DNA from: a virus
IMG/VR virus record: IMGVR_UViG_3300038701_000820
Span: 1 to 20,499 of that record
Direction: 5' to 3' (one strand)
Length of the DNA stretch: 20,499 nucleotides
Positions 3 to 20,425 of this stretch are shown here, one piece after another; within the stretch, counting starts at the first letter, position 1, and every line of letters begins with the position of its first letter. The notes below the pieces were generated by a model, which was given only the letters and a program-made list of their open reading frames with translations, did no database searches and was not told the DNA's origin. Both the position numbers and the translations under genes were made by a program.

Positions 3-1088
3 GTGTTTACTGCCACCACTGAGAAAGCCGTACAGATAGCCGCAGAAGCCAACAAAGACCGCGATAAAGAGCACACCATTAAACCACCCGTAAAAACAGC
101 CGCAAGCATTTTGTATTGGTCTGAGAAATACATAGCTTGGCGTGAAGAATACGAACCAACGCTATGCGAGCTAGCAAGCTGGAAGAATCGACGAAACCAA
201 TTGAAACGCTTCGCCGAACATTTTCGAGCCACGCCAGTTAATCGGCTAACGCTGAAACTCATCACCGCTTGGTGGCACACACTCACAGCACACGCCCAGC
301 ATTCACGGCGGGCCGAGTTCAACAAGTTCTTTAATTACCTAGCCGGGCAAGGTTTAACCCCCCTGCTTTCGTCGAATCCATTCACAAAACTGGACGATAG
401 ACCGCGAACCATTAATAAGAAAAAACCAGATGTTAAACGTATGCGCCTGCCTATCGAAGACTTTTGGATCATCTACGACAAAGCGGGCGAAATGGGTTAT
501 GAGTGTCTGCAAATTGCCATGGGTATTTCACTGGTCACAACACTTAGGCGTGAGGATGTTGTTCAACTTCAATTCGATAGCCACGTAACGGCACAAAGCC
601 TTAAAAAAACGGTTAATAAAAGCGAGGCACAGCGCGGAAGCATTGCGGCGGCCCACCTTGAATTTAGTTTCACCGATCATCCGCTTTTGGCTCAATTAAT
701 TAACCGAGGCCGAGAATTAAGCCTTAAAAACTTTCGATGTCCTTACCTTGTGAGCTTCACGCCAAAGCAACGCCGAACCGGAAAAACAAAATCGCATGTG
801 GCGCAAGTTACCGGCGATAGATTGGGGAAAATGTTCGAAGAAGTTCGAGAGGCAACAAAACTTTATAAGGACATTGGAAGCGAAAATACACCGCCGACTT
901 TCCATGAAGTGCGAGCGCTTTCGTCGTTCATGCTTAAGAATGCGGGCCATGATGTAAAAGCTGTTCAAGTTGTTATGGCGCACACTGATCCACGCGTAAC
1001 GATGGGATATCAAGCAAGACATGAAACACCGGAGTTTACGAAAGTTGGCATTTCAATCGCTGGCGATCAATTGGGAAGGGGGTTTTAA
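3..1088 (+). CDS. int: Tyrosine-family phage integrase (5' partial)
   Basis: Site-specific recombinase that would integrate and excise the phage at attP/attB through a covalent 3'-phosphotyrosyl intermediate. The visible 361 residues hold the end of an N-terminal arm-binding part, a core-binding SAM-like domain (about 36-135) and a catalytic domain (about 145-345). Catalytic candidates are R182 (in a TTLRRED block, where many relatives have TGxR), K202 or K206, H301-x-x-R304, H327 and Tyr336 in MGYQARH. The layout of the core-binding and catalytic domains is lambda-Int-like. The frame is open to the window edge, and the GTG at 3 has no visible upstream context, so the true start probably lies before the window. 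The gene reads toward the tRNA-like att core about 100 bp downstream, the normal int-attP geometry. The family call is firm; which att site it uses is inferred from proximity. Confidence 0.93.
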   Translation: MFTATTEKAVQIAAEANKDRDKEHTIKPPVKTAASILYWSEKYIAWREEYEPTLCELASWKNRRNQLKRFAEHFRATPVNRLTLKLITAWWHTLTAHAQHSRRAEFNKFFNYLAGQGLTPLLSSNPFTKLDDRPRTINKKKPDVKRMRLPIEDFWIIYDKAGEMGYECLQIAMGISLVTTLRREDVVQLQFDSHVTAQSLKKTVNKSEAQRGSIAAAHLEFSFTDHPLLAQLINRGRELSLKNFRCPYLVSFTPKQRRTGKTKSHVAQVTGDRLGKMFEEVREATKLYKDIGSENTPPTFHEVRALSSFMLKNAGHDVKAVQVVMAHTDPRVTMGYQARHETPEFTKVGISIAGDQLGRGF

Positions 1089-1094
1089 TAAAAG

Positions 1095-1136
1095 TGAACA
1101 ATGTTTTTGTGCGGGTTTTTGTTCGCTTATTGTTCA
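1095..1136. repeat. 8-bp inverted repeat downstream of int
   Basis: TGAACAAT at 1095-1102 is the exact inverse of ATTGTTCA at 1129-1136, and a further inverse copy of its inner part (TTGTTC) lies at 1119-1124. It sits just past the integrase stop and about 55 bp before the tRNA-like core. It could be a recombination-protein binding site (Int arm or Xis) or a weak RNA hairpin after int. The 26-nt loop and lack of a clean U-tract argue against a standard terminator. Confidence 0.35.
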
Positions 1137-1191
1137 GTCAGTGAATCAAGCGAATTTATTTTTTGTAAGTTGCTGATCTAAAAAGGAAAAT

Positions 1192-1236
1192 TGGTGGAGC
1201 CTAGCGGGATCGAACCGCTGACCTCAACACTGCCAG
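1192..1236 (-). other. attP: Attachment core (attP): 3' part of tRNA-Ala(GGC)
   Basis: Read on the minus strand, these 45 nt match the 3' part of a tRNA-Ala: anticodon loop CTGGCAG (1236-1230, anticodon GGC), anticodon-stem 3' strand TGTTG, variable AGGTC, a perfect 5-bp T-stem AGCGG/CCGCT with loop TTCGATC, acceptor strand AGGCTCC, then ACCA ending at 1192. Beyond 1236 the match stops: the sequence that should form the other half of the anticodon stem (CAACA) and the D-arm is absent. Many tRNA-targeting phages carry such a 3' tRNA fragment so the host gene is rebuilt on integration, with crossover often in the anticodon loop. It is not a functional tRNA by itself. Confidence 0.8.
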
Positions 1237-1268
1237 AATCGACGGTACAAAAATGCAAGTCGTTGATT

Positions 1269-1308
1269 TTGTTTGAATTTAGACCTTTTTAGACTGTTTT
1301 TCAAACAA
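1269..1308. promoter_or_regulatory. Inverted repeat enclosing a 10-bp-phased direct repeat (candidate arm or operator site)
   Basis: TTGTTTGAA at 1269-1277 is the exact inverse of TTCAAACAA at 1300-1308. Between them TTTAGAC occurs twice, at 1278-1284 and 1288-1294, one helical turn apart. The element lies 33 bp beyond the tRNA-like core and just before the ribosome binding site of the 63-aa gene. It could be integrase arm-type sites on the side of attP away from int, or an operator for the downstream genes. The sequence alone does not decide between them. Confidence 0.4.
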
Positions 1309-1324
1309 CTAAGAGGGAGTTAAA

Positions 1325-1516
1325 ATGTTCAAACGCTGCAATCACCAATTCAAGACGATTTCGCCGGGCTTTCAAAGTTGTTCGCTATGTGGAAAACGAA
1401 GGAAGGCTGTAGCTGTGGAGGTATGCAAAAAGGGAATTGAACCAGGGAAAGAGCCAACGCAACCGCCTTGGCAATTTCCAGAGTATTGTAGTGAGGCCCG
1501 CCACCGGCAAAAATAG
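1325..1516 (+). CDS. Small Cys/His protein, hypothetical
   Basis: A 63-residue protein of unknown function. It starts at an ATG preceded by a strong ribosome binding site (AGAGGGAG, 1311-1318). Its N-terminal third carries C5-x-H7 and C19-x-x-C22 followed by a basic stretch (GKRRK). This spacing could bind one zinc ion as a small treble-clef or ribbon-like knuckle. The rest is Pro/Glu-rich and probably disordered. It is the first gene beyond attP in the accessory segment, on the opposite strand from the late operon. Zinc binding is inferred from the residue pattern only. Confidence 0.6.
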   Translation: MFKRCNHQFKTISPGFQSCSLCGKRRKAVAVEVCKKGIEPGKEPTQPPWQFPEYCSEARHRQK

Positions 1517-1668
1517 CCAATCCCTAGGCAAATAGCCGGTATTGGTGGCGAGTGGCTGTATTATGTGGCGCCCGCTTCCCTGTGGCTAGTGGCCGATTTC
1601 TGCGATGCTTGTGCGATATATCTTACAAAGACAGTTCAGTCAGCCGCTACATAAGGAAAGGTGACCCC

Positions 1669-2430
1669 ATGGATAACCAAAAAAATTTCCCTTTTTACGT
1701 AAAACTTCACGAATACATAAAAGCAGACCAATTTACCCAAGTTCAGTGGTACACGAATCAATACGATCAGGAAAAAGACCACGAAACCAAACTCAAAATG
1801 CTGATTGAAGAATCAGCATTCGAAAAAATTGAGGCTGTGAATGAAGTCTGCAACTACGTAGCGAGCGCACAAAATAAAGTATCCCCCCTTTTCGCCAACA
1901 CTTTCAAGGCGATCGACGAAAACGGCACCTTTGGAATGAACTCACAACAACTCCAACAACTGCGAAATGATTTCGCGGAGCTGCTGCAAAATCAGCAGAG
2001 TGCAAAAAAGTTAACTGACGCCCTAACTGAATTAAGGCGACTCTCCGACCTAAATCTATCAGTCTTAAAAAAACCCGTATTATCAGAAAAAATAAAGCAA
2101 GCGTGCAGAGATAAAATATATCGAGAAGATCGAAACAGAACGTATATGCGTTTTGTTCACCAGGGGCTGAGAGCTCTCCTTTGGTTCATTGCTGTTGTTG
2201 CAGTTTATTCAGCCGCCGCAGGTATCTCGGAATCCACGAACTGTGCGATAAAAATACCCATTCACCACACTATAACCAAATTTTCCAACGGAAATCATGC
2301 TTGCTCGGCTAAGGCTTCACATGCACCTGCGAAGCCAGCTGAACCGAAACAGGCCGCGCGCCACACTCCCGACAAACAACCCGATCCTTCACCTTCGGCC
2401 ACTCCAAATCCGCCCCAAACGCCTCAATAA
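1669..2430 (+). CDS. Hypothetical protein with a single membrane segment and Pro-rich tail
   Basis: Not recognised. The frame is open from 1552, but the ATG at 1669 is preferred because AAGGAAAGGTGA lies just before it (about 1653-1664); this gives 253 residues. Residues 1 to about 155 look helical, hydrophilic and charged, with Gln-rich stretches. One hydrophobic segment follows a basic patch at about residues 168-188. The remaining 65 residues begin with a short Cys-containing stretch and end in a low-complexity Pro/Ala/Lys/Ser tail. A soluble N-terminal domain, one helix and a disordered tail would fit a type II-like or tail-anchored inner-membrane protein, possibly a lysogenic-conversion or exclusion factor, but nothing shows this directly. 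The last 122 bases are antisense to a zinc-ribbon gene, so the tail may be over-printed sequence. Confidence 0.65.
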   Translation: MDNQKNFPFYVKLHEYIKADQFTQVQWYTNQYDQEKDHETKLKMLIEESAFEKIEAVNEVCNYVASAQNKVSPLFANTFKAIDENGTFGMNSQQLQQLRNDFAELLQNQQSAKKLTDALTELRRLSDLNLSVLKKPVLSEKIKQACRDKIYREDRNRTYMRFVHQGLRALLWFIAVVAVYSAAAGISESTNCAIKIPIHHTITKFSNGNHACSAKASHAPAKPAEPKQAARHTPDKQPDPSPSATPNPPQTPQ

Positions 2431-2530
2431 GTGTTTTCGTATCGAGCACATACGGTAGTCGACCGCACGTGCAATCTGCATAAATGGCTTGATTTTCCGA
2501 GAGGGAGCTTAAAACACTGATTTCAATCAT
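2309..2530 (-). CDS. Small zinc-ribbon protein, hypothetical
   Basis: A 73-residue protein from the ATG at 2530; a TTG at 2548 would add six residues. It carries C20-x-C22-G and C53-x-x-C56-G separated by about 30 residues with the pattern LDTKTLIEAFGADLEWP and then a basic stretch before the second Cys pair. This layout resembles a common class of short zinc-ribbon proteins in proteobacteria and their phages, with a four-Cys site. No convincing ribosome binding site precedes either start, which lowers confidence. It converges on and overlaps the 3' end of the 253-aa gene by 122 bp. Function unknown; nucleic-acid or protein binding is possible. Confidence 0.55.
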   Translation of the reverse strand: MIEISVLSSLSENQAIYADCTCGRLPYVLDTKTLIEAFGADLEWPKVKDRVVCRECGARPVSVQLASQVHVKP

Positions 2531-2582
2531 GTGTTTAATGTACCGCAAGGTGCGACTAATTGACGCACTGCTCGCTGAATTG

Positions 2583-2615
2583 TTGACACTTTAAACGCTT
2601 TGGTGGCACGATAAA
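2583..2615 (+). promoter_or_regulatory. Possible promoter for the 107-aa gene
   Basis: A perfect -35 hexamer TTGACA lies at 2583-2588. The best -10-like sequence, GATAAA at 2610-2615, is 21 bp away, longer than the optimal 17 bp. It sits 33 bp before the GTG start at 2648, in the only non-coding stretch of this segment. A sigma-70 promoter is plausible but weak on spacing. Confidence 0.3.
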
Positions 2616-2647
2616 TCGCTTTCAAAAAAATTAAGGAGCGGTTAAGC

Positions 2648-2971
2648 GTGAAAATATTGGGCTATGGATACGTTGGCGAGCATACGATATGGCTGTTTTT
2701 TGAAATCGGCGGCAATCAATATGCAGTTCCGGAAGATGAAGCCTTGCGCGACTGCTGCCTTGATTATGGGTGTGATTTGGAGCTGTTTTGTATTCAAGCG
2801 GTTAGTTTGAATGCATGGAAGGAAGCCGACGCAATCGACTTATTTAAGCTTTTAAAGAATGATGGCGGCTTAAAAAACGAGCTGCGCCACTTAACGGGCG
2901 AAGTGTTTTTAGTGTTTGATGGTGTGACGTTTATCTATAACACTAACACCGGCGTTATTTTTTGCCGCTAG
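2648..2971 (+). CDS. Hypothetical protein, 107 aa
   Basis: Not recognised. It starts at a GTG with an excellent ribosome binding site (AAGGAGCGG, 2632-2640). The product looks like a small soluble alpha/beta protein: an N-terminal beta-rich part with aromatic residues (about 1-30), a Cys-rich and acidic middle containing C36, C37, C42 and C48, a helical stretch around 54-80, and a C-terminal beta part ending in a Cys. No signal peptide or membrane helix is visible. Its stop codon lies only 3 bp from the stop of the convergent tail-fibre gene. The position at the end of the tail operon, with its own signals on the other strand, is typical of phage accessory (moron) genes. Confidence 0.6.
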   Translation: MKILGYGYVGEHTIWLFFEIGGNQYAVPEDEALRDCCLDYGCDLELFCIQAVSLNAWKEADAIDLFKLLKNDGGLKNELRHLTGEVFLVFDGVTFIYNTNTGVIFCR

Positions 2972-2974
2972 TTT

Positions 2975-3985
2975 TTATACGGTGCTAGTTAGCTCAGTAA
3001 CAATCACGTGCGAACCCTCATAAACATCGAGAGCCCCGCCCGAAAAGTTCCGCAGTCCAACGTGAAGCGTTGCTGCACTCCCGCCGACTTTGTATAGAAC
3101 GGATCCAGAAAGCGCGTATTCGGGAAATGCAGCGCCCGCCGTAATATTCAGATCGTTTGAAAAATAGTTGTCTGTAACTGTGGTGGAAGGCGCGCTCGAT
3201 AGGCTTTTTGCAAACCGGTAATAGTTGCCGGTAACGGTTGTAAAATCCGACCCCATGATGCGTGCTTGAGACGTTGCACCGTTCGCGCCGTCCATCATTA
3301 TCAAGAAATCTATTCTATAAAACGTATTCGCCGATAGAGACATGCCGGACAGTGGCGCAAAGGCGGTTGACTCAAGCTGGTTGTTAGCAAGCGACTGATC
3401 AGAAGATAGCGCCACGATTCTTTGAGCTGGCAAATTATCAACTTTTTGTTTATCGGTTTGCGACATAAAGCCCGCTGTGCCTTGCGTGGCGACAGCATGT
3501 AGCGATCCATTCGTTTGGTTGCCGTGTCGTGTTGCGTCAAGCGTGGGAATTCGTGCGAGCACAAAAGTACCCGTCCCTGTCTTGCTTGCATCAAGCGTAG
3601 GAATCCGTGCGTCTGCAAAAACACCCGTTCCGATTTTGCTCGCGTCTAAAGTAGGAATTCGCACATCTGCAAAGACACCTGCCGTTATTTTAGAAGCATT
3701 AAGCGAAGGAATCCGCGCATCTGCAAGCGTTCCGCTAGTAACTTGCCCCGCTGCAATATCGCCAATTGACGCCGCCAAAATGCTTTGAGTTACCCACGAC
3801 GTGCCGTTGTATTCCTGCACCGTAACCGTATTTGAACCACCGCGCAAAAGCCGAATCATTCCGTTTTGCAGATTTGTATCGCCCGTATAATCAAGAGACG
3901 CCGCGTTTAAAGCCTTCTCTCTTGCGTCAGCGGGGAAATCGAGCGTTTCTAAAGTGCTTGTGTTATATGCGGCCCAATTTGTCAT
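2975..3985 (-). CDS. Tail fibre protein with 18-residue repeats
   Basis: Last gene of the late operon, 336 residues. The N-terminal 80 residues probably attach to the tail tip. Residues 85-156 are four tandem 18-residue repeats of the type ADARIPTLDASKIGTGVF, which in other phages form extended trimeric shafts. Residues 169-184 (TAGFMSQTDKQKVDNL) match the GFMS-x-x-DK-x-K motif common in fibre and collar proteins. The C-terminal part (about 186-336) looks beta-rich and is the likely receptor-binding tip. The start overlaps the stop of the tail-tip gene as ATGA, which points to translational coupling. The fibre role rests on repeats, motif and position; the receptor is unknown. Confidence 0.85.
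   Translation of the reverse strand: MTNWAAYNTSTLETLDFPADAREKALNAASLDYTGDTNLQNGMIRLLRGGSNTVTVQEYNGTSWVTQSILAASIGDIAAGQVTSGTLADARIPSLNASKITAGVFADVRIPTLDASKIGTGVFADARIPTLDASKTGTGTFVLARIPTLDATRHGNQTNGSLHAVATQGTAGFMSQTDKQKVDNLPAQRIVALSSDQSLANNQLESTAFAPLSGMSLSANTFYRIDFLIMMDGANGATSQARIMGSDFTTVTGNYYRFAKSLSSAPSTTVTDNYFSNDLNITAGAAFPEYALSGSVLYKVGGSAATLHVGLRNFSGGALDVYEGSHVIVTELTSTV
3518..3733 (-). repeat. Four tandem 54-bp repeats in the tail fibre gene
   Basis: Four copies of an 18-codon unit (residues 85-102, 103-120, 121-138, 139-156 of the fibre). The middle two are nearly identical in protein (GVFADVRIPTLDASKIGT and GVFADARIPTLDASKTGT); the outer copies are more diverged. Such repeats can gain or lose units by recombination and so change shaft length. 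Confidence 0.85.
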
Positions 3986-6900
3986 ACTGCTACTATGCCT
4001 CGTATTTGATAGGAAACGGTCCCGTTCTGGCGCGTTCCTGAATCGTTAAAAATTAAAAATTGCGGTGCGCTTGGGTTTGGAACGTCCGAGAAATTAACAA
4101 CAACTTTATGGGAGCTAGTGCCGTAAACCGTTGCCGTAATAGATGTGATATCAAGCCAATTTTTTGCGAACGTGATAGCCGTGCCGCCAGAGTCGCCCGA
4201 ACTACAAACAACCGTGCCACTTTCGCTTTGCTCTTGAATTGACAATTGAACCGACGCGCTCAAGATGCGGGCTATGTCGTTGCCGTCGCCGGTTGCGTTA
4301 ATGGTTAAGCGAACGTATCGAACATCTTCGCCAACAATCGAGCCGCTAGAATCCTCGCTTGACCAAGTACTATTATCATCGCTGTAGGCAATCGACCACG
4401 TAACACCGGGCGAACCTTGGTAAGCATCGCTCACGACGGTTGTGTTAATTTGCGTTGTTGGAATGATCACGCCAGCGTCGAAAGTTTCTACATAGCTTGC
4501 AGTGTTTGATGTTGGTAGAAAGTAAATATTGCCCGCATTGTGTCGCGATTGTGGGGTCGTGTATTGCGCCGCGTACGTTGCCCAAGTCATGTCGTTGTCA
4601 ATAAGCAACAATAAAGCGGAACCACTTAGGCGCCCGTTTGTGATTGCCCCGCCGAAACTCGGTTGTGCGTCGAAGTCATTAAACAGCGTGAAATCATCGC
4701 CGCTAACTTGTACAGATGTGCTTCCCGGTGCGCTTAAGTTTTTAGCGCTATCCTGCGCAACAACCCAATACGTTATTGTGCCTGGCGTTGTTTCCTTCTT
4801 GAGAGTGAAACCAGAATCGCCCGCTTTTTCGTTGTATAAAACAGCGGTTTCAAACGTTGCTCCAACATAAAGTAAATACTTTTTCACGGGCAAATCGCCG
4901 GGCACCGACGAATAAAAAATAGTAACGTCGGAGCCGTAAGGCTGTGCGGTAACTGTTGGTGCGGCTGGCGGCGAAGGGTTAACGGTTATTGTGTTTGTCG
5001 TACCGTTAAAACCACCGCGCAACGTTTGACGAATTCCAAAATCTCGCGAGCCTACCCAATTGATTTCGCGCAAGTGGGTTTCATCACTAAAGCGCGCTAT
5101 CTCTGCGCCGCCATAAAACAACGTGTAGTAATCAACGGGATAAGGATGCGAACCGCCCGGCGTAATATCTAAACGAACGCGCCCGCCTTCGTACATTATA
5201 TTTGCGGTTGGAAAACTTACGGACGGTATATTGAACGTCACCGAATCTTCGGCGCTATTGTTGCCGCTGGTATCCTGTGCAACACCGTGGAGCGTGTAGG
5301 TGTTAGGGGATAGATAGCCCAAATCAAATTGAAGTTGTTCCGCAGCGGCTAGCACTGTGCCGCTAGGCCAAGGATCAAAATTAGTTATTACAAACCGCCA
5401 GAAATCAGCGTCGGGATGTTGATCAAAATTAATTAAACAACGACCGTCATTTGCGTGGGAAAAACTCATACCCGTGGGCGTTGCGGGGAGCTCGCTTTTA
5501 CCGGCTGCAACGTGTTGACCAGATGAAACCCAATCACTCGGATCAACCTCCGAACTATTACCGCGAACACGAACACGCACCTGATACGCTTCGCCTTCTT
5601 CGACATTAAAATAAGCCCAGTTATTCGTAACAATATTAACGGTTAAGTATTCGCTATCCGGCTCACCCCAAAACTTTGCCTGTACCTCATAATCAATGGC
5701 TTGCGATTCGGTAGACGGTAAAAAATCAACACGTATGCGTTCTTGAATCGTGCCGTCGTTTAAGCGCTGCATTGTGTCGTTGCCGCTTGTTAAAGTGACG
5801 GGGGCGATGAAGTTTTGTAGTTGGTATTTGGGGGGCCTTGTTACGCTGCCAATATTTTCCGGGCTTGGTACGTATTGGACATAAAAACCCGTTTCACCCA
5901 CGTCAACCTGTGGGGTTTGTGATCGGCCAAAATTAAGATCGAATAAGTCACCGTCGGCATTATCTTCAAGCCATACCAAAGTGGCTTGATCTTCGTTGCC
6001 TCGTGTTCCTAGTAGCGCCACACTTGTTGAAGGGTGTATTCCAGAAAGGCCGCGATTCTGCGTTACATTGTCGGTGCTCGTGTTGTGCGTAACGTTTCCG
6101 TCAAGCAACAAATAAAAACCTCCCGGCATACTTCCGCCGCTACCCGTAAAACTAAAATCTACAGGCTCTGAGGCTGGAAAGGTGTTGCCATTTAACGCGG
6201 CGTATTCGCCATTTGATCCACTTAAGTCTATTTGTGTTCCCGCGTTTGATGTTTCGCCACGGCAAAGCAAAATGAAACCGCCGGGGCCGTCTGCACCATC
6301 TAAACCGGGCGATGCAATCTCATAATCCCAGCCGTCGCCGCCTTCGCCGTTTCTTAAGCGTATAAAAGGCCGCGATCCGCTGCCACTTGTGCCGCGCAAA
6401 TCTAGGTCGTTTATACCTTCAAGCCTCGAGCCGTCGCGGTTAATGATAGGCAAGCGCGAAAAAGTATCTGAATTCCCGCGAGTGATGTTCTGATCAATAT
6501 GGGCATACAAGATCCCATACCAATCATTCGAAACGGAATAGTTTCCCATCGCGTAGTTAGAGGGAACGCTATTGCCCAGAACACCGGGCACGCCCTGCTG
6601 TTCGTTGGTGGCCAAGTCTGGGTGATTATCTTTTAAGTAAGAAAGCGCGCGGCTAGCATCGGTGTGTAAATTTGAAAGTATTGTCGAACTGTTCAGGGTG
6701 AATAATGTAGCGCCAGCCCCTCCGGCATGACCGCCGCCAACGAGGTTAATCATTCCCCGCGTGCAAAACCCTAGCACCTTTAAAAAAACGTTGTCGGTGC
6801 CCGTAATCACCGGTGCGGGGCTTCCTGTTCCTTGCGTTAAGTCTCCGAGATAGTAATAAATACCGTCTCCCATTGTTTCGCCACCGGTTAGCGTAATATC

Positions 6901-8652
6901 CGCCGTTACTACGCCATCTACAATTTCGGGGAATGTGGCAAGGTCTGTTCCTTCCAAACTGTAATAGGCATTGTCTAAAACATTCGTTTGCGAAATGGTC
7001 TCAAACGAACCGGGCGCATTTACTGAAGCAAATAATAAAAGCTTTAGTTTCCCTGTGCGTGAGTCGCGGCTTGTTTCTAGAATCTCGCAAACACGGTCAA
7101 AAGTACCGCCTCTTAATGGGTCGCGAATCATTGAAGTAGTTAAACGTATAGTGTCGCCGACTTCCAAACCGCGCACGTGTGGCAGGGCGTGTGCTTTTAG
7201 AGTTAAACCACCGCCAGCGAATCGACTGCGAAGCGCATCAAACATATTGCGAATCGTTTGCCCAGTCTCTTTGCTACTTCGTAAGCCGCGTAACTGGTAA
7301 CGCTTAGTTTTGCCTTTTTTATATTTGGCGATACTGTCTACATCGATTAACGTTGTGGGCTGTAAAAACTGCTCTTGAAGTGCCGACCAATCCCAATCAA
7401 TTGAAATTTCGTTGAGCACATCTGGTAGATCATGACGCAATGAGCTAATACTTTTTGAAACAATGTCTGCGTCGGTTAACTCCCTTACGTAGCCCGATTC
7501 TGGCAATACTGGAACGAGCTTTTTTATCCCGATTGCGCCGTCACTATATACAGGACGAATACAGCCAAGCACGGGCAAAATCTGTTCCGTTATAAATTGT
7601 TCGCCGCTTTGTTTTTTCTCGCCAATAAAGCTTAACTCTCGGCCTGTATTGGCTGAAGGATTCCATAAAAGCGGGTCTGCATTTTCGTAATCTGACAAAC
7701 GTACAAGGTTTGTTGGGATACCTTGGTGCCAGTTGTCTGGAAGTGTTGCGCCGCCCTGCCCGTATAAAACGCCGGTTTGCACGGCATAAAGAAGCTTAAG
7801 AATTGGGCCTTCTAAATAAACTAATTCCTCAATAGCCGGGCGACGGTCAAGCGGCGCATTGTCGTCTACTGCGTGGCCTTGTGGCTGCGTTCCTAAAACG
7901 TTTCTTTCTACTACGTTAAAGCATATACCTAGCTCGGCATCATCAACGAACCCATTATGACAAAACCATTCGTTACCTAGCTTTGCATAACCAACTGTTT
8001 CGCCTGGCCGATCGTCATAGCTTGCATCATGCTCTAAAACCTGAAATCGGTTTGTTGGCAAAACAAGCGCGCATGGAATCAACAACGTTTCTGCATCGAT
8101 TGTTTGGCGTAAAGTTGTTTTATCTAGAACGAATATTTCTTTCTTTTCTAGTCGCTGAACGTCATCGGCAACAACTTTATAACCGGTGGTTGTGACCTCA
8201 TAAGACTTAAACGGCATTGTGTATTCAAGCTCGAAATCGACCCAATCAAGGCTTTCGAGCTGGCCGGGTGCGCTAGAATCTTCAGGCCCAACCATTCGCG
8301 GGCCATAACCATAATAAACTTGAACCAATTTTTCGCGGGGGCTTTTCCCTTCGCTTTCTTTTAACGCGAAAAAGTCCGATATTTCCCCGTCAATATCAAC
8401 CAGATCAAAGCTAATTGAACCAATCGATGACTTATTGCTCGCCGGGTCGATACGTTGCGGTGTTGGTGTGAAGTTTTTTAAGCAGCCATCGACTGCGTTG
8501 ACACCGCCACCGGTTGGCCTTTGGTTTTCGTCGTGCGAAGTAAGCCACAATATATCACTGCCATCGTCTTCAAAATTAATGGCTATCGTAATTCGTGGGC
8601 GAGTTTGGGCCGCGCCAGCAAAGGCGAGAAAATTATTATTTAATTCGCGCAT
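3982..8652 (-). CDS. Tail tip / host specificity protein (central fibre, J-like)
   Basis: At 1556 residues this is the largest product. It follows the Dit-like gene directly (stop and ATG adjacent) and precedes the fibre, the usual place of the lambda J/gp27-like tail-tip protein. Residues 1 to about 550 look like the baseplate-hub part. About 553-945 is a Gly-rich beta region with short Gly-X-Y-like stretches near 783-792 and a GGGHAGGAGA run near 639-648. About 950-1318 appears to be four fibronectin-III-like modules. The C-terminal part (about 1320-1490) looks like a beta-sandwich or lectin-like domain. It would form the tail tip and contact the receptor, perhaps a surface carbohydrate. 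The J-like assignment rests on position, size and FN3-like modules; domain borders are estimates. Confidence 0.82.
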   Translation of the reverse strand: MRELNNNFLAFAGAAQTRPRITIAINFEDDGSDILWLTSHDENQRPTGGGVNAVDGCLKNFTPTPQRIDPASNKSSIGSISFDLVDIDGEISDFFALKESEGKSPREKLVQVYYGYGPRMVGPEDSSAPGQLESLDWVDFELEYTMPFKSYEVTTTGYKVVADDVQRLEKKEIFVLDKTTLRQTIDAETLLIPCALVLPTNRFQVLEHDASYDDRPGETVGYAKLGNEWFCHNGFVDDAELGICFNVVERNVLGTQPQGHAVDDNAPLDRRPAIEELVYLEGPILKLLYAVQTGVLYGQGGATLPDNWHQGIPTNLVRLSDYENADPLLWNPSANTGRELSFIGEKKQSGEQFITEQILPVLGCIRPVYSDGAIGIKKLVPVLPESGYVRELTDADIVSKSISSLRHDLPDVLNEISIDWDWSALQEQFLQPTTLIDVDSIAKYKKGKTKRYQLRGLRSSKETGQTIRNMFDALRSRFAGGGLTLKAHALPHVRGLEVGDTIRLTTSMIRDPLRGGTFDRVCEILETSRDSRTGKLKLLLFASVNAPGSFETISQTNVLDNAYYSLEGTDLATFPEIVDGVVTADITLTGGETMGDGIYYYLGDLTQGTGSPAPVITGTDNVFLKVLGFCTRGMINLVGGGHAGGAGATLFTLNSSTILSNLHTDASRALSYLKDNHPDLATNEQQGVPGVLGNSVPSNYAMGNYSVSNDWYGILYAHIDQNITRGNSDTFSRLPIINRDGSRLEGINDLDLRGTSGSGSRPFIRLRNGEGGDGWDYEIASPGLDGADGPGGFILLCRGETSNAGTQIDLSGSNGEYAALNGNTFPASEPVDFSFTGSGGSMPGGFYLLLDGNVTHNTSTDNVTQNRGLSGIHPSTSVALLGTRGNEDQATLVWLEDNADGDLFDLNFGRSQTPQVDVGETGFYVQYVPSPENIGSVTRPPKYQLQNFIAPVTLTSGNDTMQRLNDGTIQERIRVDFLPSTESQAIDYEVQAKFWGEPDSEYLTVNIVTNNWAYFNVEEGEAYQVRVRVRGNSSEVDPSDWVSSGQHVAAGKSELPATPTGMSFSHANDGRCLINFDQHPDADFWRFVITNFDPWPSGTVLAAAEQLQFDLGYLSPNTYTLHGVAQDTSGNNSAEDSVTFNIPSVSFPTANIMYEGGRVRLDITPGGSHPYPVDYYTLFYGGAEIARFSDETHLREINWVGSRDFGIRQTLRGGFNGTTNTITVNPSPPAAPTVTAQPYGSDVTIFYSSVPGDLPVKKYLLYVGATFETAVLYNEKAGDSGFTLKKETTPGTITYWVVAQDSAKNLSAPGSTSVQVSGDDFTLFNDFDAQPSFGGAITNGRLSGSALLLLIDNDMTWATYAAQYTTPQSRHNAGNIYFLPTSNTASYVETFDAGVIIPTTQINTTVVSDAYQGSPGVTWSIAYSDDNSTWSSEDSSGSIVGEDVRYVRLTINATGDGNDIARILSASVQLSIQEQSESGTVVCSSGDSGGTAITFAKNWLDITSITATVYGTSSHKVVVNFSDVPNPSAPQFLIFNDSGTRQNGTVSYQIRGIVAV

Positions 8653-9057
8653 TTACGGTAAAAGCCTTACCTGAAATGAAAATTTAAATTCTGGGTTTGG
8701 CCCTATGCGAGGCCGAGAGAAAGGCCCGGTTAAAATGGCCGTGCGTGGGTCGTCTGGGCTTGCAACACTTCCATACGCATCAAAAATAAACGTTTCTTTT
8801 AGGTTTACACTTTTTAAAAACTCTAAAACGTTTTCGTACTCTTGCGTGCCTACAAGAAGCTGCAACAACTCAACGTCAAAAAGCTCATCTTCACGTTCAA
8901 CGGCCACTTGTGTATTGCCCGCAATTGAAACCTCTTCGTGATATATAGGCTTATCGACCGGCTGTAAAACCATAGGGGATAAATCTAAATCGTAGCTAAC
9001 GCCTAGCGAGTGGCCTGTGGCGATGCTGCGCGATGCCGTGTAAGTGACTGCTGTCAT
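8653..9057 (-). CDS. Distal tail (Dit-like) protein
   Basis: A 134-residue protein between the tape measure and the tail-tip protein, where siphophages encode the distal tail or small minor tail protein that links the tube to the tip. An AAAGG ribosome binding site overlapping the tape-measure stop precedes the ATG. The sequence has alternating beta strands, a helical hydrophobic stretch near residues 64-87 (LLQLLVGTQEYENVLEFL), and a C-terminal strand ending FSFQVRLLP. No catalytic motif is visible. The assignment comes mainly from gene order and size; I cannot place it in a named family with certainty. Confidence 0.6.
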   Translation of the reverse strand: MTAVTYTASRSIATGHSLGVSYDLDLSPMVLQPVDKPIYHEEVSIAGNTQVAVEREDELFDVELLQLLVGTQEYENVLEFLKSVNLKETFIFDAYGSVASPDDPRTAILTGPFSRPRIGPNPEFKFSFQVRLLP

Positions 9058-9060
9058 ATT

Positions 9061-10899
9061 TTACCTTTCAACAATTATTTCGCCGTTTTGGTCAACAGCT
9101 CTTACGCGCTGATTGTCAAAAGCACGCACAAGAATATCGATTATTTGTTCCTCGGCACCTTCCGCGAATATATCTCCATTAAAAATAACCGTGCTTTGTG
9201 GGGTTTGTTGTTGCTGAGATACATTTTCTAATTGTTCTACACCAAAACTAGTTGGCACGCTCACGTCAGAAATAGACGGCGGTTCTGCTGCTGAACTAAC
9301 AGAAGGAGTCCCACCACCACCGCCACCATATTTCTGCGATTGAAGTGCGCGAACTTGCTTAAAGCCATTTGCCGCCGCCCATGCGACAGCCGGGATTGCT
9401 TTTGGCCAACCGAGTTTCACGCCGGCGGCAATACCTTGATAGGTACTAATTAAAGCGCTAGATATGCCAGCTATTTTTGAAGCTTTAAACATCTTCTTAG
9501 AGCCGGCAGAAAATATTTTTAGAATCTCGCCCGCCTCGCCAAGCGCAATACCTACACGACCAATAGCGGCTGACTTTTTAAATCTAGTGAAGAGAGATTC
9601 AAAATATTTTTGGTTTTTAAACCTGCGCTGATAATGTCCAAGCTCTAACTGTTCAAAATGATTATTTATATCGCGTTGTTTATCGATTTTGTCAGATTCA
9701 CCGTCCTTCGTTCCGTCGTCACCTATTAGATTTCCTAGCAACCCCTCGCGCTCAGAGGCAATTGTGCGCGCCTCAACTTCAAACTTATCCAGTGTCTGAT
9801 TTAGGTAGGCTCTGATTTTTTCGCCAGGTAGAGGAGCCATAGCCGCATCGCTCAATTCTTCACGTAACGAGCTTGTAGTTTGATTTATTGAGTCCTTAAA
9901 CTGATTTACTTTGTTTATTGCCTCAATATCAAAACCTAGTTTTTTTGCTAAGCCTCCACCCAAGCGAGCAGGGAGAGTAATAAGTTCAACAGTTTCATTA
10001 AATACTTCCGCCACCATTTGTCTGACGGTTAAGAAAACAACCTTTAAGCCGTGAACTGCGTCAGCCGCAAAGCCAATACCAGTGACAATTGTTCTTGAAA
10101 GTTTTTGCGAAACGGTTCCAAGCCCGCCAGCGTTCGCCGCGTTCTCTAAAAATAGATCAGCCATAGCCCCGAGAATCGGCGCGGTTTCTACAGCAATCCT
10201 TCGACCAAAAGCCCCTGAGCTTTTGCCAACTTTTGTGAATGCATCATTCGCAAGCTCCACTTTTGCCACATCAACGGAAGAAAGCGAAAGCCCCAACCCT
10301 TCAACTTCTTTTGCTGCGTTTCTTAATCCTTCTTCGCCCATAGCCAACGTGTTTACAAGCGCAACACCTTCACTATCGAATAATTTCATCGCTAGCCTGA
10401 CACGATCGCCTTGCGACGAAACGCCTTCCATTGCTTTCGATATCATTATCATTTGTTGGTCTGGGCGAAGCGATGCTAAATACTCAGCGCTTAAGCCTAG
10501 CTCTTTTATCGCGTCCCTTGCTTCGCCGGTTCCCTTTGCGGCCTCGGCAACCCTTCGCGTCATCCTTTGTACAGCCATATCCATTGTGTTTATAGATACA
10601 CCGGATAACTCGCCCGCGTGCCTTAACCCCTGCAAAGCATCAACGGTAACGCCGAGCTTTGCGGACTGCTTCGCAAGTTTATCTATCCCGTCAATGTGCG
10701 CCGTGTAAAAGCCTTTGATTTTATGAGCCGCAAACAATCCTATAAACGCCTTCACCACTCCATTTACCGAACCAATTGACTTCTTGTATCTTTTCTCCCA
10801 TAACTTCGAACGTTTTTCGGCTGCATCAAACCCTTTCTGTAGTTTCTCGGTCTGAGTCTCCATTACTATCGATAGTTTGGCTAACTCGTTTTGTGACAT
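9061..10899 (-). CDS. Tail tape measure protein
   Basis: Sets tail length and occupies the tail tube lumen until DNA ejection. It has 612 residues and lies directly after the tail-chaperone pair, its fixed position in siphophages. The N-terminal 60 residues are charged and helical, followed by long amphipathic Ala/Lys/Glu helices (about 80-420) with a hydrophobic segment around 265-310. A C-terminal block (about 470-525) has the typical ISSALISTYQGIAAG and AIPAVAWAAANGFKQVRAL motifs of tape-measure C-termini, then a Gly6 run and an acidic end. At roughly 0.15 nm per residue, this length would suggest a tail near 90 nm. The ATG at 10899 lies inside the GT frame (74-bp overlap); ATG 10863 is an alternative start. 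Confidence 0.88.
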   Translation of the reverse strand: MSQNELAKLSIVMETQTEKLQKGFDAAEKRSKLWEKRYKKSIGSVNGVVKAFIGLFAAHKIKGFYTAHIDGIDKLAKQSAKLGVTVDALQGLRHAGELSGVSINTMDMAVQRMTRRVAEAAKGTGEARDAIKELGLSAEYLASLRPDQQMIMISKAMEGVSSQGDRVRLAMKLFDSEGVALVNTLAMGEEGLRNAAKEVEGLGLSLSSVDVAKVELANDAFTKVGKSSGAFGRRIAVETAPILGAMADLFLENAANAGGLGTVSQKLSRTIVTGIGFAADAVHGLKVVFLTVRQMVAEVFNETVELITLPARLGGGLAKKLGFDIEAINKVNQFKDSINQTTSSLREELSDAAMAPLPGEKIRAYLNQTLDKFEVEARTIASEREGLLGNLIGDDGTKDGESDKIDKQRDINNHFEQLELGHYQRRFKNQKYFESLFTRFKKSAAIGRVGIALGEAGEILKIFSAGSKKMFKASKIAGISSALISTYQGIAAGVKLGWPKAIPAVAWAAANGFKQVRALQSQKYGGGGGGTPSVSSAAEPPSISDVSVPTSFGVEQLENVSQQQQTPQSTVIFNGDIFAEGAEEQIIDILVRAFDNQRVRAVDQNGEIIVER

Positions 10900-14307: not shown

Positions 14308-15588
14308 TTAGGCTGCGTCGCCAAGCTCAATGTATGAGCTTAATGAGTTAGCCGCTTTTTGTGGAGCGGTTCCCTTATTTGGTAGTACCGGGGTGCTCAG
14401 GTAAGGAATGCCACCCGCTCGAAGCGTCCATTTAAATGCTTGAACGTCGTAATCAAACAAAAGATGCGCCGAAACTGACGACTTGATGCCGCCTTTATGT
14501 GGCATGTAGTAGCCTTTCGGATCAACGAACTTAACATCACCTTGATCGCCCAGATATTCACAATTTTCTGAGAAGTAAACAGGACGCCCAAGTAATGTGC
14601 CGCCAGGCGCAGACGCAAGGCCGTTAGGTGCTAGATATACGGGCTGATTGCCAACGGTTAATGTCATCAACTTGGGAAGCACCGAGCGATTCACAAGCCA
14701 AATCGATCCCATTGGGTTTGTAGATCGTGAAAACATTGAAACCAATGCTTCGGCGTCGATTTGGTTGGCTGTAGCTCGAGCTACTGCTACCGCAACGCCC
14801 GATTCTTTAAAGCCAAGCATTTTCCCAACGCCGCTACCTTCAAAGATGCCTTGGTTAAGCTTCCAGTTAATCGCTTGGTTTGACTTGGTAGTTAAGCGAG
14901 AATTTAAACGCGGGGCGTCTTCTAGTAATTCCTCGGTTAACTCTGCGAAAGCATGAACCTTGTGAAGTTTTACCGTTTCGCCTTTTGTTTCCATTTTTGA
15001 GCGAACCATTTGCCCAGCTTCAGTGCCCCAATACGCTTGAATACCCAAGCCGCCCCAAGGGGTCGATTCGTCGCGCAACACTTGAACGGCATTACTTGAA
15101 GTCATTTCAGCATCAACCAAAGGCAACATATTTAAATCATTGGTTTCAACTTCCAACACTTCCATTTTTAGTGCTGGAGGCACATGCAATCCGTCATTGC
15201 TTCCGCCTTCTTTGTGCAGTACATCAGACGGCGCACCTAAGAATTTCAAGCGGTCATCAACAATAGCACCATTTGAAGGGTGCGCGGCATGAACTGCCAG
15301 TGCAAAATCAGCGAAATTTTCAAACCCGCCGCGTGCTTCTTCTTCGTGATTTTTTGCTTTTGCTGGCATCGTTGGCGCTGTTTGTCGACCTTGTGGCTGA
15401 AAGTCTTCGTTCATCGCTTCCAGCTTCTCTTTGCGCTTGATCTGCGCATCGATCTTTTTTACTTCAGCTTCAAGCGCGTCGAAATTCTCGGCGGTTTCTG
15501 CGTCCATCGTTTCGGGGTTGTCTTCAGTAATTTGGTGCATTTCTGCAATTTTTGCTTTTTTAAGCGCGATAAGTTCTGCGATAGTCAT
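14308..15588 (-). CDS. HK97-fold major capsid protein
   Basis: Forms the icosahedral head. About 426 residues from ATG 15588, chosen because GGTGAT precedes it; an in-frame GTG at 15597 is the alternative. Residues 1 to about 65 form a charged coiled coil (the delta/scaffold domain), followed by a Gln/Pro-rich linker (PQGRQTAPTMPAK) around which the prohead protease probably cuts. The rest has the HK97 pattern: the ETKGETVKLHKVHAFAELTEELLED E-loop/spine part, a helix with SNQAINWKLNQGIFEGSG, then GKMLGF, the SIWLVNRSVLPKLM strand-helix and the C-terminal LFDYDVQAFKWTLRAGG. It follows the protease and precedes the putative decoration gene. Strong by pattern and order. Confidence 0.93.
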   Translation of the reverse strand: MTIAELIALKKAKIAEMHQITEDNPETMDAETAENFDALEAEVKKIDAQIKRKEKLEAMNEDFQPQGRQTAPTMPAKAKNHEEEARGGFENFADFALAVHAAHPSNGAIVDDRLKFLGAPSDVLHKEGGSNDGLHVPPALKMEVLEVETNDLNMLPLVDAEMTSSNAVQVLRDESTPWGGLGIQAYWGTEAGQMVRSKMETKGETVKLHKVHAFAELTEELLEDAPRLNSRLTTKSNQAINWKLNQGIFEGSGVGKMLGFKESGVAVAVARATANQIDAEALVSMFSRSTNPMGSIWLVNRSVLPKLMTLTVGNQPVYLAPNGLASAPGGTLLGRPVYFSENCEYLGDQGDVKFVDPKGYYMPHKGGIKSSVSAHLLFDYDVQAFKWTLRAGGIPYLSTPVLPNKGTAPQKAANSLSSYIELGDAA

Positions 15589-15667
15589 ATTGATCACCGT
15601 TAAATAGTTTTAAGTTTTTAGGGTTTGGTTTTAAGAGTTCCCGCCTAGCGAGAGAGCGACTTAGCGC

Positions 15668-16501
15668 TTAAAGTGCTGCCAACTTAACGCGAGCTGCACG
15701 AGTGGAACGACCGGGGCGTACATTTGTCTGTATTGCTCCGATCGTTTCCGAAAGGGTTTGTATTCCGTCGATTAATCCGAGGGTTAGAGCTTTATCAGAA
15801 AGAAAAACGCGTCCATCTGCGACGGTTTCTAAATCTTTTCCGCTAATGCCTCGACCTTCTTGCACTTCGTTTAAAAATGATTTGTAAAGGCCGTCGATAA
15901 TTTCCTGAGTCGCTGCTATTTGCTGATCAGTTACCGGCGTACCGTCTAAGCCTGCGCTTTTATGTGGGCCGGTATCTACCGGTATAACTTTCACGCCCAT
16001 TTCTTCGTAATACTTGCTCGAATCAATCATCACAGTGCGCACACCGATTGAGCCTATAAGATCGTCGCGAGCGGCATAAATCGCTGAGGCATTAGCGGCA
16101 ACGTAATAGCCAGCACTAGCGAGTAGGCCATCAACTTGAACCGTGATAGGTTTAATTGCGTTAACACGTTTAACCGTTTGCGCTAGCTCGTTAAGCCCTT
16201 CAACGCTTCCGCCTGGCGTATCCATTACCCACACAATTGATTCGATTTCTTCGTCATTAGCTGCGGCAATCAAAGCCTCTTGTGCGTCTCGTGTGCCTGC
16301 AATGCCATAGCGAGCCATCCAGCCCGCACGCTTAATCATTGGCCCGACGGTGCTTATTACCGCCGTTGATCCGTATTTGTTAATGGGCAAGCCTTCGCGG
16401 TCTGCGTCTTCTACAGGCCCGGCCTTAATAGAATTCAATATTAATTCGATCGATGATTGAAAATAGTTTTGGTGAATATTCCAAATAGTGGGCAAAAGCA
16501 T
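15668..16501 (-). CDS. S49-type (SppA-like) prohead protease
   Basis: Processes the capsid scaffold during head maturation. It has 277 residues and is placed between portal and capsid. It carries the S49 signatures: WVMDTPGGSVEG (about 91-102) forming the oxyanion region, the nucleophile Ser129 in GLLASAGYYVAA, and the general-base Lys181 in GPHKSAG. The Ser-Lys spacing of 52 residues equals that of Bacillus subtilis SppA (Ser147/Lys199). No signal peptide is visible, as expected for the phage version acting in the cytoplasm, though the N-terminal 30 residues are moderately hydrophobic. ATG 16501 follows the portal stop by 3 bp, with GGGAG upstream. Confidence 0.9.
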   Translation of the reverse strand: MLLPTIWNIHQNYFQSSIELILNSIKAGPVEDADREGLPINKYGSTAVISTVGPMIKRAGWMARYGIAGTRDAQEALIAAANDEEIESIVWVMDTPGGSVEGLNELAQTVKRVNAIKPITVQVDGLLASAGYYVAANASAIYAARDDLIGSIGVRTVMIDSSKYYEEMGVKVIPVDTGPHKSAGLDGTPVTDQQIAATQEIIDGLYKSFLNEVQEGRGISGKDLETVADGRVFLSDKALTLGLIDGIQTLSETIGAIQTNVRPGRSTRAARVKLAAL

Positions 16502-16504
16502 CTT

Positions 16505-18088
16505 TTAGCACTCCCTTAAGAAGTTTGTAATTTTTGAAAATAGCTTTTCATCTTTGGTGTGCTCCCACGATTTCAAAAGCATTTTGTTTTCATCTTTAAT
16601 GATTGCGTTGTAGAGATCATCGGCACTTTGCGCAGCGTAATCGGAGAAAAACACCTTTAATTTTTCTTCGATTCCTTCGGGATTTTTGCCGAATTCTTCA
16701 AGCGCTAACGCTGCCACGTTTCGGAATTTATCAACGCATCGTTGCGCGTGTGAAACGTACACCCTTGCTATATCTTCCTGACTTGTTTCAATTGAGAACT
16801 TTTTAACTCTTACCAGCTCGGCTTTTGTTAAATCTCTGCACGTTTCCTGTATTAGCGCACCGATTGAGGCGCTTTTTTGCTTGTCGTTTGTCAAAACGCC
16901 GCTTTTCATGCGCTCTAAGGTGGTCATATTGCTAGGAACTACGCGCAAATCACCGTTATTTTCTAGTGCGTCCATGTCTTCGAATTCTCGGATTTCGTCG
17001 ATATCAATCGCACCCATCGCAAAAAGGTCTTTGTAATATTCTTTACGGGCTGCTGAATCACCGCGCAACAAACCCATCACGTTAACTTTCGTGTAATAGT
17101 TAACGCCCTGTTTTCTTAATAGCGTGTGATTCGCTGAGTTTTCCGCACGACTTACATTGGGAACGATGGCATCAGTCACAAAATCTATGTTTTGTGGTTC
17201 GATATTGGCCCATGTCGCTTTGTCTAAAATGGCTAGCTTATGGGGCGGCAATCTAAACCAGCGGCACATATCCAAAATCCCGAAATTAGCCGTTTCAATA
17301 AACTGGGCATCTTTCGCAGAAAAACCGAATTCTTTTACATCAAGGCCACCGTCTAGGTATTCGGTGCCGCGCATTTTGTTTGCGCCTTTGTTTCGGCGGT
17401 TCCATTTGTTTAATAGGTTTTTTACGCCGTCTTTATCTATTTTTGACTTATTTTCTACATTGGTAATTAGAAGCGAAGGCATCGCCCCATTGCCCAAGAA
17501 GCTCGCACCGAACGCATGAGCGCCCATCCCTAGCGAAATAGATTCGCGGGCTTGCTCTAATATTCCTAAACCGATTAAGCCGTCTTTACTGGGGCCGCGT
17601 ATATGCAACATATCGGCAGGCTTAATCGTACTATCTGGAAAACCAGAATTCGAAACCTCGTAATAAATGCGGCCTTTCTGGTCTCGTTGCATTTGTACGC
17701 GGTGCGGTTCGATAGGCCAAAGCGCGATAACTTCGCCTGAACGATTGCGCTCTACTTCTGCGTAGAAGTTGCCAAAGCGCAACACATTGCGCTGCATTAA
17801 TTCTTTAAAGTAAAACGGTGCAAGCTCATCATTCGGGTGCATATAAAGCACGTAATCCAAAGGGTGATCGCTTACAGGAACGCGTTTAGAGCCGCCGCGC
17901 TGGAACACATGCCAAGGCAAATAAGCCACGGTTTCCGTAATGATCCTTTCGCAACACGCATACCCCGAATAACGCGAGGCGGTATCATCATTAACAGCCA
18001 TTCCCGCGACCGGCTTTTGCAAACTGAAAAACGGTTGCTGTATTTGTTGGGGCGCGGTGTTTCGCTTCGCTGAGAAGTCAAAAAACAT
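16505..18088 (-). CDS. Portal protein (HK97 type)
   Basis: Forms the dodecameric gate through which DNA enters the capsid. It has 527 residues. The N-terminal half has the typical clip/stem-domain sequence: YSGYACCERIITETVAYLPWHVF, ELMQRNVLRFGNFYAEVERN, PADMLHIRGPSKDGLIGLG and a long helix ISLGMGAHAFGASFLGNGAMPSL. The region FGILDMCRWFRLPPHKLAILDKAT (about 295-320) is a conserved portal signature. It is longer than many HK97 portals (about 420): residues after about 400 add a helical, charged C-terminal part that probably extends the crown or barrel. AGGA precedes the ATG at 18088, directly after the 50-aa membrane gene. Confidence 0.93.
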   Translation of the reverse strand: MFFDFSAKRNTAPQQIQQPFFSLQKPVAGMAVNDDTASRYSGYACCERIITETVAYLPWHVFQRGGSKRVPVSDHPLDYVLYMHPNDELAPFYFKELMQRNVLRFGNFYAEVERNRSGEVIALWPIEPHRVQMQRDQKGRIYYEVSNSGFPDSTIKPADMLHIRGPSKDGLIGLGILEQARESISLGMGAHAFGASFLGNGAMPSLLITNVENKSKIDKDGVKNLLNKWNRRNKGANKMRGTEYLDGGLDVKEFGFSAKDAQFIETANFGILDMCRWFRLPPHKLAILDKATWANIEPQNIDFVTDAIVPNVSRAENSANHTLLRKQGVNYYTKVNVMGLLRGDSAARKEYYKDLFAMGAIDIDEIREFEDMDALENNGDLRVVPSNMTTLERMKSGVLTNDKQKSASIGALIQETCRDLTKAELVRVKKFSIETSQEDIARVYVSHAQRCVDKFRNVAALALEEFGKNPEGIEEKLKVFFSDYAAQSADDLYNAIIKDENKMLLKSWEHTKDEKLFSKITNFLREC

Positions 18089-18090
18089 TA

Positions 18091-18243
18091 TTAATTATTT
18101 CCTGTTAGTCGGATTAACAAGGCCAACACGATTAAGAAGCCGCCCGCAAACATTAACGAACACGCAAGGCCGTAAGATAAAAACACACCTGCCACGGTCG
18201 CTATAAAGCCAATAATTAATAATATTTCTGGAATATATTTCAC
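18091..18243 (-). CDS. 50-aa protein with two membrane helices
   Basis: A short gene filling the whole gap between the terminase and portal genes. GTG 18243 follows the terminase TAG directly and has AAGGG 7 bp upstream. The 50 residues are almost entirely hydrophobic: helix 1 about 4-22 (PEILLIIGFIATVAGVFL), a short turn with Ser/Tyr/Gly, and helix 2 about 28-44 (CSLMFAGGFLIVLALLI), ending RLTGNN. It is likely an inner-membrane hairpin. Small membrane genes at this spot are seen in some HK97-type phages, but no role is known to me. It could be holin-like by size and two-helix topology, but no endolysin is adjacent, so I do not assign that. Confidence 0.75.
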   Translation of the reverse strand: MKYIPEILLIIGFIATVAGVFLSYGLACSLMFAGGFLIVLALLIRLTGNN

Positions 18244-19965: not shown

Positions 19966-20425
19966 CTAAATCTAAAGACCCTTGGTTTGGATTTTCAATG
20001 CGTAAAGATTGCCGTGAATGGGGCGTTAGATTTAGTTTCGATTCAAGTTTATGAAGGCGTGAGGCATGTCGCTCACGAGCCACAGCCCAGGGTGATAGCT
20101 GGAAATACCCAGATGGCGTTTTCTGAAATTCGCCATTCTCCTGAACCTCTCTTTGAGCCTTCACATACCAAGCATATGTTTCGCAATAAACGCGAAACAC
20201 ACTTAAATCTACCGAACTAATTAGCCCTGCTTTTTTTAAGCGCGAACCAATATAAACCCAATGGTTTTTTGCGATGAGATCGAGTTCGCCCGGCATTTTC
20301 GGTAACTCAGCGTCAAGACCTTGAAAAAGCTCGTTGGCTTTTTCTTCCACGCTTTTTATATTACCTTTGTGCGAGTCTAGACCCACTACAGCATCGGTAA
20401 AAACGCCATAATCTCTACTAGACAT
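19958..20425 (-). CDS. terS: Terminase small subunit (P27-like)
   Basis: Recognises the packaging start and delivers DNA to TerL. It has 155 residues. The middle part follows the P27-family layout: a helix AKNHWVYIGSRLKKAGLISSVDLSVFRVYCETYAWYVKAQ-like stretch (about 52-91), a Gly-containing turn, SPWAVARERHASRLHKLESKL (about 111-131) and the ending LNLTPHSRQSLRI, where NLTPxSR is the family hallmark. It begins the late operon in the window. GGAGAA lies 7 bp upstream of ATG 20425. No DNA-binding helix-turn-helix is obvious by eye in the first 40 residues, but such a fold is expected. Confidence 0.88.
   Translation of the reverse strand: MSSRDYGVFTDAVVGLDSHKGNIKSVEEKANELFQGLDAELPKMPGELDLIAKNHWVYIGSRLKKAGLISSVDLSVFRVYCETYAWYVKAQREVQENGEFQKTPSGYFQLSPWAVARERHASRLHKLESKLNLTPHSRQSLRIENPNQGSLDLDG

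Follow-up and report, generated by a model that had tools for sequence, protein, structure and literature searches.

Why should an integrase gene in a viral contig point at a piece of a tRNA gene, with phage tail genes lying just beyond it? The question is raised by IMG/VR record IMGVR_UViG_3300038701_000820, which is classed as linear and whose whole 20,499 bases were analyzed (here called the window). An earlier note on this DNA had described an integrase gene (int) facing a 45-nucleotide (nt) 3' fragment of tRNA-Ala(GGC), with accessory and tail genes on the other side, and direct reading confirms that arrangement. We are confident that the window spans the phage attachment site (attP) of a temperate phage that inserts at a host tRNA-Ala(GGC) gene, and that it shows the un-inserted arrangement. 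The site is of a well-known kind and the finding is ordinary phage biology. What it establishes, from a record covering about half of the genome, is where an undescribed marine-type phage attaches, how its genome is ordered and which host group is likely.

The tRNA-Ala core, its integrase and integrated relatives

Two features define the junction:

3..1088, plus strand: tyrosine integrase, 361 aa visible, reading toward attP (PF00589, phrog_1)
1192..1236, minus strand: attP core, 45 nt reaching from the anticodon loop of tRNA-Ala(GGC) to its 3' CCA (45/45 identity to intact genes)

The reverse complement of 1192-1236 is CTGGCAGTGTTGAGGTCAGCGGTTCGATCCCGCTAGGCTCCACCA. An intact tRNA-Ala(GGC) gene ending in these bases, which the earlier note had suggested looking for in host genomes, is found in several genera of marine gammaproteobacteria, with identity at 45/45 positions in Gilvimarinus agarilyticus (L024), Aestuariicella hydrocarbonica (L025), three Marinobacterium species (L030, L034, L035) and others. 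The intact genes were called with ARAGORN, which reports no complete tRNA in the window. The match opens with the first base of the 7-nt anticodon loop. The 5 bases adjoining it are CGATT in the window, compared to the stem sequence CAACA in the bacterial genes. An exact 45-nt match is no chance event, and of 2.9 million IMG/VR contigs only 22 contain an exact copy of the last 43 nt of the core.

The integrase matches Pfam PF00589 (E 3.8e-7) and the integrase family phrog_1 (E 1.3e-15). Judged by the length of its relatives, it lacks ~42 N-terminal residues, because the contig starts there. R182, K206, H301, R304, H327 and Y336 (window numbering) are invariant in an alignment with nine relatives, and we take these residues to be the catalytic set of tyrosine recombinases. 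Used as a single-sequence query against IMG/VR, the window integrase returned nothing, its short exact peptide patterns being too specific; an alignment query retrieved 19 loci in IMG/VR and 13 loci among 84,980 genomes. Marinobacter phage PS3, whose integrase is 28% identical, has no such core in the stretch examined.

Related integrase genes adjoin an intact tRNA-Ala(GGC) gene in Gilvimarinus agarilyticus, Aestuariicella, Pseudohongiella, Neptuniibacter, three Marinobacterium species and one Pseudomonadales genome. In six genomes the same contig holds a second copy of the core, as a 3' fragment without the 5' half, at distances of 38.1, 38.9, 30.8, 19.2, 46.9 and 38.9 kb from the intact gene.

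A close counterpart of the window is the prophage of G. agarilyticus JEA5 (NZ_JXCJ01000001.1, about 2127585-2165709). Its int faces the intact tRNA gene, and past the late genes, at a distance of 38,092 bp, comes the displaced 3' fragment; integrase, TerL and TerS are 53%, 62% and 51% identical, respectively, to those of the window. From the intact tRNA, the order is int, early genes, TerS, TerL, portal, protease, capsid, tail and fragment, TerL and TerS being placed by homology and the others from order and inspection of translations. The tail-side DNA ends TATCAAAGCTTTAGCAGTTTGTCCCCGCGATT beside the displaced fragment, and both this layout and the CGATT half-site match the window. When the JEA5 host flanks are joined across one core, they give an uninterrupted match (95% over 184/185 nt) to another genome of the genus (G445), whose site is an empty attachment site. 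Since the window joins ends that are kept 38 kb apart in the JEA5 prophage, the window is the attP junction. In that prophage int and the late end do lie at opposite borders, as the earlier note had maintained for prophages, and the note's attP reading is upheld by this relative, related in both integrase and terminase and inserted at an intact tRNA-Ala(GGC) that ends in the same 45 nt, together with the empty site.

These comparisons suggest the following scheme. The integrase would recombine attP with the anticodon-loop region of the host tRNA-Ala(GGC) gene. With the tRNA's 3' 45 nt carried on the phage, integration would restore an intact tRNA beside int, and the corresponding fragment of the host gene would end up at the far end, past the late genes. 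The host is probably near Gilvimarinus (Cellvibrionaceae).

The same junction is present in other viral contigs. Among the 22 IMG/VR contigs with the exact 43 nt, eight (L002, L005, L008, L011, L013, L016, L021, L022) run from phage DNA or late side through the fragment to an integrase pointing at the core, and these integrases are 36-43% identical to that of the window. An intact tRNA is present instead in L010, L012, L015, L017-L019 and L023.

Five contigs (L003, L004, L006, L007, L014) carry a different integrase-like gene at the same tRNA-Ala core. With no detected homology to the window integrase, they were set aside as direct relatives; their position suggests independent convergence on this core. 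Separately, L013 has a 234-aa open reading frame (ORF) at -6084 to -5379 from the core (tRNA-sense coordinates), near a large fibre-like gene, whose start consists of repeats like AIADIAFKK.

Anatomy of the attachment site

The attP occupies 1103-1268 and belongs to a temperate siphovirus-like phage whose packaging genes are of HK97 type. Around the core we recognize the following elements, where IHF stands for integration host factor and attR for the prophage junction at the late end:

1103..1112, minus strand: putative arm-type site 2, int side, GCACAAAAAC (direct repeat with 1115-1124)
1115..1124, minus strand: putative arm-type site 1, int side, GAACAAAAAC (ACAAAAAC repeat)
1166..1178, minus strand: IHF-like site, int side, GATCAGCAACTTA, one mismatch to consensus (by inspection; weak; not conserved in most relatives)
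1225-1229 and 1237-1241, minus strand: half-sites TGTTG and CGATT around the overlap (shared block, CGATT phage-side in the window and Gilvimarinus attR)
1230..1236, minus strand: probable 7-bp overlap, anticodon loop CTGGCAG (start of the block shared by the window and Gilvimarinus attR)
1244..1253, minus strand: putative inverted arm-type site, late-gene side, TTTTTGTACC (counterpart agtttttgtcc in relatives)
1256..1268, minus strand: IHF-like site, late-gene side, AATCAACGACTTG, perfect match to WATCARNNNNTTR (comparison of 15 sites)

Strand exchange probably occurs within the 7-base anticodon loop, where the earlier note had placed the crossover; many independent attP and attR sites share a block whose extent points to the same position. 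The excision junction computed for the Gilvimarinus prophage shares with the window an unbroken block from CGATT through the 45-nt core. CGATT stands in place of CAACA in both, as it should if CTGGCAG is the overlap and the left half-site is provided by the phage itself.

On the minus strand of the window, ACAAAAAC occurs only at 1103 and 1115, and equivalent direct repeats (e.g. ggacaaaaac) adjoin int in relatives. An inverted copy of this int-side repeat sits between the late-side IHF-like site and the core. A perfect IHF-type match, always 31-32 nt from the core, is found in 8 of 15 related att sites, the window included; the whole window contains only six occurrences of the consensus on both strands. 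Across these 15 elements the late-side and int-side arms covary, with pairs such as ggataaaaact/agtttttatcc (L002), ggacacgaact/agttcgtgtcc (L005) and gcacaataact/agttattgtgc (Pseudohongiella). Own arm pairs score 9.53/11 compared to 8.81/11 for swapped pairs (permutation p about 2.5e-4; shuffled control 8.02), a difference to which kinship among the elements contributes. From their sequence pattern and covariation, these sites may be bound by integrase and IHF.

Alternative origins of the junction

Several observations weigh against reading the window as an un-inserted attP. The record is a linear fragment that ends inside int, and it is a sequence record alone. Capsid and portal are without a detected counterpart in the JEA5 prophage, which makes the relationship a mosaic one. 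The window's own arm score, 9/11, is not the best in its row, as the arms of L013 fit the window tail side better; for this reason, the arm sites alone were rejected as proof of continuity.

The window sequence would be the same whether it came from a virion, a replicating circle, a tandem prophage of one phage or a join made during assembly. The attP could be real and the DNA still come from a tandem double prophage of a single phage, not from free DNA. That would give an identical junction, and the record has no flanks; the argument against it is indirect, tandem dilysogens being expected to be rarer among viral contigs than virion or replicating DNA, and we regard this origin as unlikely.

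An assembler could also have joined the tail side of attR to the int side of attL, the opposite prophage junction, across the 45-nt repeat. This block is repeated in the host site (attB), attL, attR and attP, and contig L009 ends 2 nt past the core, much like an assembler break. Even so, both halves would still belong to one phage type and the join would equal its attP. Moreover, eight other contigs share the junction, and L022 has it mid-contig (37 kb). These data make such a join very unlikely.

Two different elements might instead lie in tandem in one tRNA-Ala gene, so that the late end of one abuts the int end of the other. The earlier note had taken contiguity as a sign of attP; attP stands, but contiguity by itself is insufficient against such a tandem, being compatible with it, and tandem islands at tRNA genes are known. 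Islander lists 125 tandems of two or more among 3919 islands (PMC4383910). Against this, the nearest integrase and the nearest TerL among genomes of its family are both found in one Gilvimarinus prophage, the tail-side layout and the CGATT half-site match the attR of that prophage, and eight other contigs, whose integrases are homologous, repeat this order. Because integrase, terminase and late-side arm all point to one prophage type, we consider a two-element tandem highly improbable.

Phages can carry tRNA genes and remnants, and hence the fragment might be a relic unrelated to integration, which is scarcely credible: its start coincides with that of the anticodon loop, it matches live host genes at every position, and it adjoins arm-like and IHF-like sites before an integrase whose relatives face an intact tRNA. 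The Gilvimarinus tRNA/fragment pair and the empty site in practice refute the relic reading.

Genome layout, related targets and known systems

Read as an un-inserted phage, the window runs from integrase through the 45-nt core to accessory ORFs, tail genes and head and packaging genes. Its left end cuts the integrase gene, and its right end lies 74 bases upstream of the TerS gene. Beyond the core, the features are:

1325..1516, plus strand: small accessory ORF, 63 aa (ORF call)
1552..2430, plus strand: accessory ORF with one apparent membrane segment, likely start ATG 1669 (ORF call)
2648..2971, plus strand: accessory ORF, 107 aa (ORF call)
2975..10899, minus strand: tail genes, from a tail-fibre-like gene and a 1556-aa tail protein to a tape-measure-like protein (names partly from position and length)
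14308..20425, minus strand: head and packaging genes: capsid, S49 protease, portal, TerL and TerS (Pfam, PHROGs)

PHROGs identify TerS, TerL, portal and capsid, which confirms the late genes, and by Pfam and PHROGs the order TerS-TerL-portal-protease-capsid of an HK97-like siphovirus module is present. Based on the int-TerS distance in the Gilvimarinus prophage, the missing early region would be ~16 kb. This would give a whole phage of roughly 36-37 kb, of which the window represents about half. The 1556-aa tail protein has no relative in IMG/VR and one weak match among phages, and the tail side could therefore not be traced through it.

None of the three accessory ORFs has a significant family match among Pfam, PHROG or defence-system models; an AbiTi match (E 0.012) was discounted, the defence-system models giving nothing credible. 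ORF 1552-2430, which has a proline-rich C-terminus, lies between the tail genes and attP on the strand opposite to the late genes and is possibly a lysogenic conversion gene. A SRAP/DUF159-like gene is seen near the attachment end of the Gilvimarinus prophage (L073:18112-18684), and an annotated DUF159 gene lies upstream of int in Marinobacter phage PS3 (L052:1-123).

Other members of the integrase family lie at tRNA-Pro(GGG) genes or fragments (L027, L028, L031, L033, L036, L047, L048, L077, L079), and one lies at tRNA-Val(GAC) (L081), the 3' half of which is carried by L083. The anticodon arms concerned are CAACA-CTGGCAG-TGTTG, CCACA-CTGGGGG-TGTGG and CCACC-TTGACAT-GGTGG. In the tRNA-Pro and tRNA-Val members, too, the anticodon arm is likely always the crossover region. 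A maximum-likelihood tree of 30 integrases needs five target changes, with the well-supported branches alone forcing at least three for tRNA-Ala; the window clusters with two integrases that likewise sit at tRNA-Ala, those of Gilvimarinus and of a Microbulbifer genome (G010). On balance, we favor the view that this marine gammaproteobacterial family has shifted repeatedly among the anticodon arms of tRNA-Ala(GGC), tRNA-Pro(GGG) and tRNA-Val(GAC), with the arms on both sides co-changing. Retargeting with the anticodon-loop position kept fits the known integrase sublocation classes, as set out in the Islander report (PMC4383910; Williams 2002 cited there). The related attP sites offer paired integrase and site variants for three tRNA targets, with covarying arms, and, if the view is right, form a natural series in which the core and arm specificity of tRNA-targeting integrases could be mapped. 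In Marinagarivorans algicola (L028:2253-2400), int sits at the opposite side of the core and is directly followed, in its own orientation, by a late-side-type arm and a tRNA-Pro fragment.

How does the window compare with known systems? The JEA5 prophage shares the tRNA-Ala(GGC) site, the late-side layout, the CGATT half-site and related integrase, TerL and TerS; it differs in being integrated, with int and the late end 38 kb apart, and most of its late genes are not detectably related. L022/L041 (3300035492_000143, 37168 b) has an un-integrated junction and a homologous integrase (43%), as in the window, and L018 and the Marinobacterium genomes hold the integrated form of L022-type phages. 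Unlike the window, L022, L018 and the Marinobacterium phages carry two tRNAs between int and core, one a tRNA-Glu and the other a second tRNA-Ala(GGC) that differs slightly (L022:2983-3160, L018:5724-5901, L030:1297-1474, L034:11059-11228, L035:11229-11412), so that in Marinobacterium-type phages integration would add a tRNA pair and possibly a second target.

The lambda attP is served by a tyrosine integrase, has a core with arm-type and IHF-type sites and lies in the order tail genes - attP - int. The window resembles it in all three respects, its own arm-type and IHF-type sites being putative, whereas the lambda attB is intergenic, not in a tRNA gene, and the arm and IHF sites differ in how many there are and how they are ordered. 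Mycobacteriophage Ms6 uses tRNA-Ala genes, as does the window phage, but with a crossover in the T-loop rather than the anticodon loop (PMC1762012). From Islander class A (PMC4383910), the phages and islands that attach at the anticodon loop of tRNA genes, we found no difference of kind: there, as is likely for the window, a 3' tDNA fragment in attP restores the gene, and the overlap is centred on the anticodon loop.

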